A DNA stretch of 33,774 nt, from NCBI GenBank assembly GCA_902528215.1, contig CABZRR010000002.1:1-33774 (forward strand). Reading direction: 5' to 3'. The number at the start of each line of letters is the position of its first letter. Position 1 is the stretch's first letter. Shown piece after piece: positions 23,297-24,997 of the stretch. The stretch is from an uncultured SAR86 cluster bacterium. Its GTDB lineage: Bacteria > Pseudomonadota > Gammaproteobacteria > Magnimaribacterales > D2472. A model generated the notes under the pieces. That model was given only the letters and a program-made list of their open reading frames with translations, searched no databases and was not told where the DNA came from. The position numbers and the translations under genes are program-made.

Positions 23297-24997
23297 TTAC
23301 GAAATAAATTCTATGATACTTTTAGCTGCCTCTCTTCCTTCCCAAATAGCCGTGACGACCAAATCAGAACCTCTGACCATATCACCACCTGCAAAAACTT
23401 TTGGATTTGATGATTGAAATTTTAGGTTTTGCTTTTCCGGAGCTATTACCAATCCAGCTTCATCAGTATGAATTTTAAAATCTTTAAACCAGTCGGCTGG
23501 GCTTGCTCTAAATCCAAAAGCAATCACAACTTCGTCAGCAGAGTAAATCTTTTCGCTACCTTGGATTGGAACAGGTACCTGTCGTCCATTTTGATCTGGC
23601 TCTCCAAGTTTTGTTTGGATTGTTTTTACCCCCTCAACATTGTCGCTTCCAATAATCTCAATTGGTTGGATATTAAATTCAAATTGGACTCCTTCTTCTT
23701 TAGCATTTATAACTTCTCTTCTTGAGCCAGGCATATTTTTTTCGTCTCTTCTGTAAAGGCAAGTAACAGATTTAGCTCCTTGTCTAATAGCAGTTCTATT
23801 GCAATCCATAGCAGTATCTCCGCCACCCAAGATAACTACATCCTTATTTTTAAAATTAATATAATCGGAATCTTTTTGTTTAAACTTTAACAGATGATTT
23901 GTATTACCGATTAAGTAGTCAATTGCTTTATGCACTTGAGGCAAGTTCTCACCTTGGAAGCCTCCTTCAAGTGAGGTATAGGTTCCCATGCCCAGAAAAA
24001 TAGCATCATATTTATCAAATAATTTTTTCAAGGGAATATCCTTTCCAATTTCTTTTTTCAAATGGAATTTAATTCCCATTTCTTCAAGAATTTTTCTTCT
24101 TCTGCGTACGACACTTTTTTCTAACTTAAACTCAGGAATTCCAAATGTCAGCAGGCCACCTATTTCTGCTTGTTTATCAAAAACATCGCAATGAATTCCT
24201 GCCCTAATAAGAATATCTGCACAACCTATCCCAGCGGGTCCAGCCCCAATAATTGCTACCTTTTTGTTAGTCCAAATTCTGTTACTTAGGTCAGGTTTCC
24301 AACCCATATTAATAGCTTTGTCGGTAATAAATTTTTCAATATTACCTATACTCACTGCGCCAAAACCATCATTTAATGTACAGGCTCCCTCACATAGGCG
24401 ATCTTGAGGACAAACTCTGCCACACATTTCTGGAAGTGAATTTGTTTGATGGCATAAATCAGCAGCCTCCCAAATATTGCCTTCATTAACAAGTTTAAGC
24501 CAATCAGGAATATAATTATGGACGGGACATTTCCATTCGCAATATGGATTACCACAATCTAAGCATCTATGAGATTGATTAGATGCTTCTGACTGGTTGT
24601 AGTCACCATATATCTCAACAAAATTTATTTTCCTTTCTTCAATATTTTTTTTATTAGGATCAAACCTGCCAACTTCTAAAAATTGAAAATCATTTTCGAT
24701 AGGTACGTGCTCAACATATTCTGATCGCGATTTAAAATTATCTGAAGAGGAAACAGTTGAGACGGAGATAGTATTTTTGCTAAGAAGTTCTTTCTGCCAA
24801 TCAAATAACATAGCTTTTGCTTCATCTATATCAGTTATTGGCGCAAAAGACTTTGTTACGTATTTTCTATTTAATCTAATTTTTCCGTAAAAAAATGGTG
24901 AGCGAGGTTGGGTAAATAGCATGAGTCCTTTATCAATCTTATATTGTTTATTCTTCATGCTCATAAAATTAAGGTTTGTGCGTGGTATGTATGACAT
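23297..24997 (-). CDS. gltD: Glutamate synthase small subunit with an extra N-terminal recombinase-like domain
   Basis: Residues about 103-566 are an ordinary GltD, which passes electrons from NADPH to GltB: FQFLEVGR, 4Fe-4S Cys145, Cys148, Cys153 and Cys157 in [34 protein letters not shown] loop [15 protein letters not shown] and NADPH loop [17 protein letters not shown]. GltD normally starts at that FQFLEVGR. Here about 100 residues precede it, including [25 protein letters not shown] and [17 protein letters not shown]. This resembles the arm-type DNA-binding domain of tyrosine recombinases. No ATG, GTG or TTG lies in frame between Met63 and the core, so the fusion looks real. Met12 or Met14 (24964, 24958) are plausible true starts. 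The gene is divergent from gltB. Confidence 0.93.

Follow-up and report, generated by a model that had tools for sequence, protein, structure and literature searches.

We found that the small subunit of glutamate synthase (GltD) encoded in the window, a 33,774-nt stretch of DNA from an uncultured SAR86 bacterium, begins with a domain whose homology to the arm-type DNA-binding domain of tyrosine recombinases is supported by profile searches in both directions. The domain is conserved among related genomes and occurs together with a short direct repeat upstream of gltD, and the repeat is absent where the domain is absent. Arm domains of the same kind, each with a repeat of its own, precede a Rieske protein and an indolepyruvate oxidoreductase (IOR) in other genomes of the order. 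With moderate confidence, we propose that the 5' module of an integrase gene was captured and kept as a working domain of GltD, which would bind its own upstream repeat and autoregulate gltD. The first-pass annotation had offered two alternatives, capture of an integrase fragment or a domain that now ties GltD to DNA; the data favour both together.

The GltD ORF (566 aa) spans 24997-23297 on the minus strand. Profile searches, a structural model and a selection test place the arm-type domain at its N-terminus (58 residues, KNKQYKI...QKELL; 24782..24955, minus strand), followed by a variable linker of ∼29 residues, recognized by its dN/dS (24695..24781, minus strand), and by the GltD core, which starts at ORF residue 102 (∼24694) and extends to the stop codon (23297..24694, minus strand). 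The extra residues (∼100) noted in the first-pass annotation are real and include this domain and linker. The core belongs to the glutamate synthase small subunit, as indicated by Fer4_20 and pyridine nucleotide-disulphide oxidoreductase (Pyr_redox_2) Pfam domains, both intact in the fused protein, and by the presence of the gltB partner. In codons 1-140 of the ORF, ATG, GTG or TTG is found at residues 1, 12, 14, 26, and 63 only, and the earlier remark that no in-frame start codon lies between Met63 and the GltD core holds. Residues 1 to 11-13 are unconserved and partly overlap the upstream DNA repeat; conservation in fused gltD starts at KNKQYKI (24955), right behind the ATG codons at residues 12 and 14, and in relatives (L011, L014, L030 among others) the open frame starts just ahead of the arm domain. 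Because of the unconserved leading residues and the relatives' frames, gltD probably starts at ATG 12 (24964) or ATG 14 (24958) (24958..24964, minus strand), rather than at 24997. The gene for the large subunit, gltB (25020..29480, plus strand; start at 25020 or 25032), is divergent from gltD. This arrangement was read in the window (23297-29480) and in G029, both of family f1, the family of the window genome. In G050 and G038 of family f4, gltD follows gltB and overlaps the gltB stop codon by 1 nt, as judged by coordinates, which suggests translational coupling (loci compared with the window: L172, L173, and L174). A promoter scan of 24900-25200 gave three sites (1.6 expected from shuffling), none a clear gltD promoter. 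The model of full-length GltD (mean pLDDT 62) was too poor for domain placement.

The resemblance of the extension to the N-terminal arm-binding domain of phage-type integrases, suspected from the first reading, is supported by forward and reverse profile searches, and the predicted fold is in keeping with it. Profile A1 was made from the fused-copy arm domain; the wider profile A2 adds four recombinase rows. Outside the order, A1 found four places in 369 genomes of the class. Each of these is a recombinase that has an HDLRHT motif and carries the domain N-terminally; the one run against Pfam matched PF00589 (1.5e-35). Across 398 genomes of the phylum, A2 found 30 places besides the window's own, spread over 27 other genomes. 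Of the 29 places that were read, 27 have recombinase features (L160, L161, L163, L166, and L170 by motif alone, L146 and L158 by weak Pfam matches), and the other two are short frames (L150, L162) with no evidence for or against a recombinase. Outside the SAR86 order the fused-copy profile found no enzyme besides recombinase-like proteins or short cut frames. In the reverse direction, a profile of five integrase N-termini was run against 1482 ORFs, and the fused proteins ranked above all other ORFs listed (E 3.1e-16 to 5.2e-13 for Rieske, 2.3e-10 and 3.3e-9 for IOR, 2.8e-5 for GltD of the window and 1.4 for the weakest GltD). When named genomes were scanned with two peptide patterns, which set the reach of the scan, 18 loci came up, of which 14 are SAR86 fusions (12 Rieske and two IOR) and four are recombinase-like by eye.

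The arm domain was modelled with a pLDDT of 92.7 as strand-strand-strand-strand-helix. The model resembles integrase arm domains with Z of 5.1-6.5 (3rmp 6.5, 3jtz 6.2, 3ju0 5.1), values below 8 that may reflect a common arrangement only; with MmoD (7.0) and an AP2 domain (5.1) these made up the top five of the second look with VIA. In VIA the arm model (m621c41773ab6) scored highest against MmoD (PDB 6d7k), the inhibitory subunit of methane monooxygenase, which stood above the integrase arms. Pfam and PHROGs gave no significant match to the extension, and an NES_C_h match (0.067) was taken as noise. Plain Foldseek searches with the arm model were not significant (best E 0.61 in PDB and 0.063 in BFVD), and the arm profile had three matches among PDB sequences, none an integrase (best E 0.47). 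Over this domain the profile-matched integrases likewise have no Pfam match, apart from weak DUF6538 matches in two. Two scans of viral contigs confirmed no arm domain, GenBank phages searched with the IOR arm gave none, and a plasmid search with the Rieske arm gave three weak Azospirillum records (E 0.02-0.05). The fused arm is like integrase arm domains (PDB 3rmp, 3jtz, 3ju0; recombinases L077, L080-L083) in profile and N-terminal place and, judging by its model, may be so in fold. Unlike in the integrases, what follows it is a complete metabolic or respiratory enzyme: no tyrosine recombinase catalytic domain is present in the fused proteins, and the GltD, Rieske or IOR core stands in its place.

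Next, we examined the distribution of the domain in SAR86. Family f1 comprises 107 genomes of ten genera, and f3 and f4 are other families of the same order. We infer that f1 is probably D2472 ("Suzuki"), which PMC11582366 reports to be the sister group of CHAB-I-7 and to contain ten genera. A1 matched in 105/199 genomes of the order and A2 in 109/203, the latter being 94 of f1, 14 of f4 and one of f3. The extension is carried by 94 of the 107 members of f1, in ten genera, and we therefore reject misassembly as the source of the gltD fusion. Among 60 relatives, the matching GltDs of f1 carry the extension and those of sister families start at or near the core. We read 41 distinct complete fused GltDs directly, with the frame open through domain and core, and judged the others by frame length; in G565 the fused frame is broken (182 aa). 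Thirteen f1 genomes have no arm domain. A GltD of this type (E ≤ 1e-20) is absent from 12 of these, a distant 674-aa frame being the sole GltD-like match in G007 and G025; in the thirteenth, G011, the GltD match starts at residue 200, at a contig end. Besides its fused GltD, G198 has another GltD-like gene that is distant (38%) and lacks the extension. Weak profile places in G027, G186, and G163 (E 0.001-0.008) were taken as chance, the G027 region alone having been read.

The arm domain of GltD is under purifying selection. Among 17 genes of the same genus, dN/dS was 0.054 for the domain, 0.157 for the linker and 0.039 for the core; among 30 genes of the family the values were 0.113, 0.416, and 0.073, respectively. 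These ratios are rough since dS is near saturation. Invariant sites make up 24/58 of the domain and 230/468 of the core alignment columns; those of the domain include Y23, K25, R27, Y32, and T34, and strand alternation suggests that these residues may lie on one face of the sheet. Given its recurrence in 94 of 107 genomes and this selection, the arm domain on GltD is more than chance. Absence of an internal start, selection at the protein level and open frames in 41 genes all indicate that the extension is probably translated with GltD, as the first reading had supposed.

A putative operator, the direct repeat GTCATAC-TAT-GTCATAC, lies at 24989..25005 (minus strand). Of the 94 f1 genomes with fused gltD, 92 contain the site GTCATACnnnGTCATAC exactly once, and none of the 13 domain-free ones has it; the reversed pattern occurs in 0/107. 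G034 and G192, the domain-bearing genomes in which no exact site is present, both belong to genus g10. In the gltD upstream regions GTCATACnnnGTCATAC was exact in 40/41, G034 having one mismatch. The flanks of the repeat are variable, with 12 to 44 bp to the first domain codon. In a random control (first-order), some exact 7-mer at the period of the repeat appeared in 192/8200.

The arm domain is also fused to the Rieske protein (petA) in 14 genomes of f4, which is TMED112 (CHAB-I-7), and there it precedes the Tat signal (UCR_Fe-S_N, residues 82-120) and the Rieske domain. Eleven of the 14 frames are full (267-288 aa); G107 is cut by a contig end, and G069 and G089 have frames of 46 and 112 aa. 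In G089 (L179) the arm-linker frame stops at 112 aa, ahead of the Rieske part, and the upstream repeats are retained. Three f4 Rieske genes (G038, G044, G056) have no arm. In G005 and G013, both of the window's genus, the domain stands ahead of an IOR of ∼1240 aa; among 60 genomes, 10/12 IOR matches have no arm and start at query residue 77 or beyond (the N-terminus was read in G036 only). Domain and linker join at or near the native N-terminus in the fusions read. All three acceptors are Fe-S enzymes (the IOR cluster being assigned from its motif and from what is known of this enzyme), a link that consists of three cases seen after the fact. In a tree of 59 arms, with 15 of the GltD rows used, the fused arms form one group whose support (87/59) is not significant; the nearest non-fused arms are those of an integrase in G043 and of three Verrucomicrobia integrases.

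Repeats accompany these fusions as well. The pattern TTGAACA-N-TGTTCAA (spacing 8-14) is present in 14/14 genomes with fused Rieske and 0/3 unfused ones, the reversed control being present in 2/17. The gap between rpsI and petA is 10-14 bp in the three unfused f4 genomes and 176-212 bp (rpsI to the HIHI codons) in the fused ones, where an inverted repeat TTGAACA...TGTTCAA follows rpsI and a second one ends at the ATG; TGTATATAAT lies between the two in 7/15 fused loci printed (two genomes twice). An extra TTGAACA-N10-TGTTCAA was seen in G066 (L204:1107-1130, G066:C10), away from petA and 72 bp past a 308-aa ORF that by eye resembles a TnsA-type endonuclease. At the start of the IOR gene, ATRCACAG-N14-22-CTGTGYAT is present in 2/2 fused genomes and 0/8 others. 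Neither sequence nor layout (direct vs inverted) is common to the three repeats, and by inspection their half-sites share an ACA end only. The G043 integrase, which among SAR86 integrases lies closest to the fused arms, is 382 aa long, adjoins tRNA-Phe, and has integrase SAM-like Pfam matches and an SLRHT motif with no PF00589 match. Between tRNA-Phe and the gene, the 120 bp before its start hold five copies of TAACACA, counting both strands. This recombinase (L077:1921-3268) is followed by a DNA methyltransferase-like ORF and by another ORF that by eye may be restriction-related. A significant upstream repeat (p ≤ 0.05) was found at 3/35 recombinase genes; we do not claim such repeats as a general rule of these integrases, and one-step capture therefore rests mainly on one integrase.

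The arm/repeat pairing on three Fe-S enzymes points to control by each enzyme over its own gene. We infer from the sequences that the arm would bind DNA, that the regulation would be negative, that free enzyme would be the signal sensed and that capture may have taken a single step. If the 5' end of an integrase gene was captured along with its arm sites, promoter and arm domain, the host gene would have gained a DNA-binding domain and the matching operator at once. The arm of GltD would then bind GTCATAC-n3-GTCATAC before gltD and autoregulate the gene, like integrases with arm sites over the promoter, in a negative feedback exerted by enzyme that is free (unassembled or cofactor-poor). Such feedback could stand in for the gltB-gltD translational coupling suggested in f4. 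The Rieske locus looks like the insertion of a captured integrase 5' end, and the same kind of module may sit on the TMED112 Rieske gene and on the IOR of two genomes. Integrases with attL over their promoter repress themselves, and PMC2951348 reports this as common or general for tRNA-linked integrases. Among such autoregulated genes, intS of KplE1 (PMC2951348) is like the present case in that repeats adjoin the start of the gene encoding the arm domain; it differs in that the product here is a cell enzyme, for which binding and repression are proposed.

Compared with GltD of the E. coli type, as in f4, the fused GltD has its core domains likewise intact (53-57% identity to f4 GltD); it differs by the added arm and linker and by a gltD divergent from gltB, not downstream of it. 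A domain that by homology is DNA-binding is thus joined to an intact enzyme, as in trigger enzymes or autogenous repressors, and the conserved, dedicated repeats at the fused enzymes' own genes are candidate operators. The DNA-binding domain of PutA is a ribbon-helix-helix. Enzymes with a DNA-binding domain controlling their own gene are already known from PutA and other trigger enzymes, as described in PMC6978683, and GltD would be like them in this respect. It differs from PutA in the fold of the domain, which is of integrase origin here, and its regulatory role would be as proposed above. A wider version of our reading, which we offer tentatively, is that integrase arm sites, promoter and arm domain moved as a unit onto SAR86 genes as a portable autoregulation cassette, kept on Fe-S enzymes since free or cluster-less enzyme would shut off its own gene; the cytoplasmic Rieske precursor would then repress before export.

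The observations can be read in other ways. The arm may have been re-used for protein interaction or for the assembly of Fe-S enzymes, another regulator binding the repeats. The Fe-S nature of all three acceptors agrees with this, as does the MmoD row (Z 7.0), MmoD being a partner of an iron enzyme. A shared regulator should, however, have more sites than the single gltD site per genome; the three genes have three different repeats, and the sites disappear along with the domain. We regard this reading as unlikely. We think it quite improbable that the integrase 5' end served only to supply gltD with a new promoter and start at its separation from gltB, with the arm now just a folded N-terminus and the repeat a part of the promoter. 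The divergent gltD of f1, set against the 1-nt overlap in two f4 genomes, and the 176-212 bp of new DNA upstream of fused Rieske genes would fit such a gain, but a promoter alone requires no protein part, and whole domains were retained in three different genes, with a dN/dS in GltD near that of the core and far below that of the linker, and together with their repeats. That the extension is untranslated and GltD starts at its core from a rare start codon is hardly credible: past residue 63 there is no ATG, GTG or TTG up to residue 140, the domain is under protein-level selection, and the frame is open across domain and core in the 41 genes read.

What appears to be new in the proposed module is the use of an integrase arm for autoregulation, in three Fe-S enzymes that each have a repeat to themselves. 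No description of such a role was found in the literature searched, most subscription journals lying outside it; the words "integrase" and "Rieske" each occur 0 times in the main text of PMC11582366. The named domain and the named 17-bp site, present once per genome, make the proposal clear and cheap to test, and the finding raises the new question of why three Fe-S enzymes are involved. SAR86 genomes are small, and PMC11582366 counts the group among the most abundant bacteria of ocean surface waters. If the proposal is true, the self-control module of a mobile element would, via fusion, have turned into the circuit that governs core enzymes of nitrogen assimilation and respiration in these bacteria.
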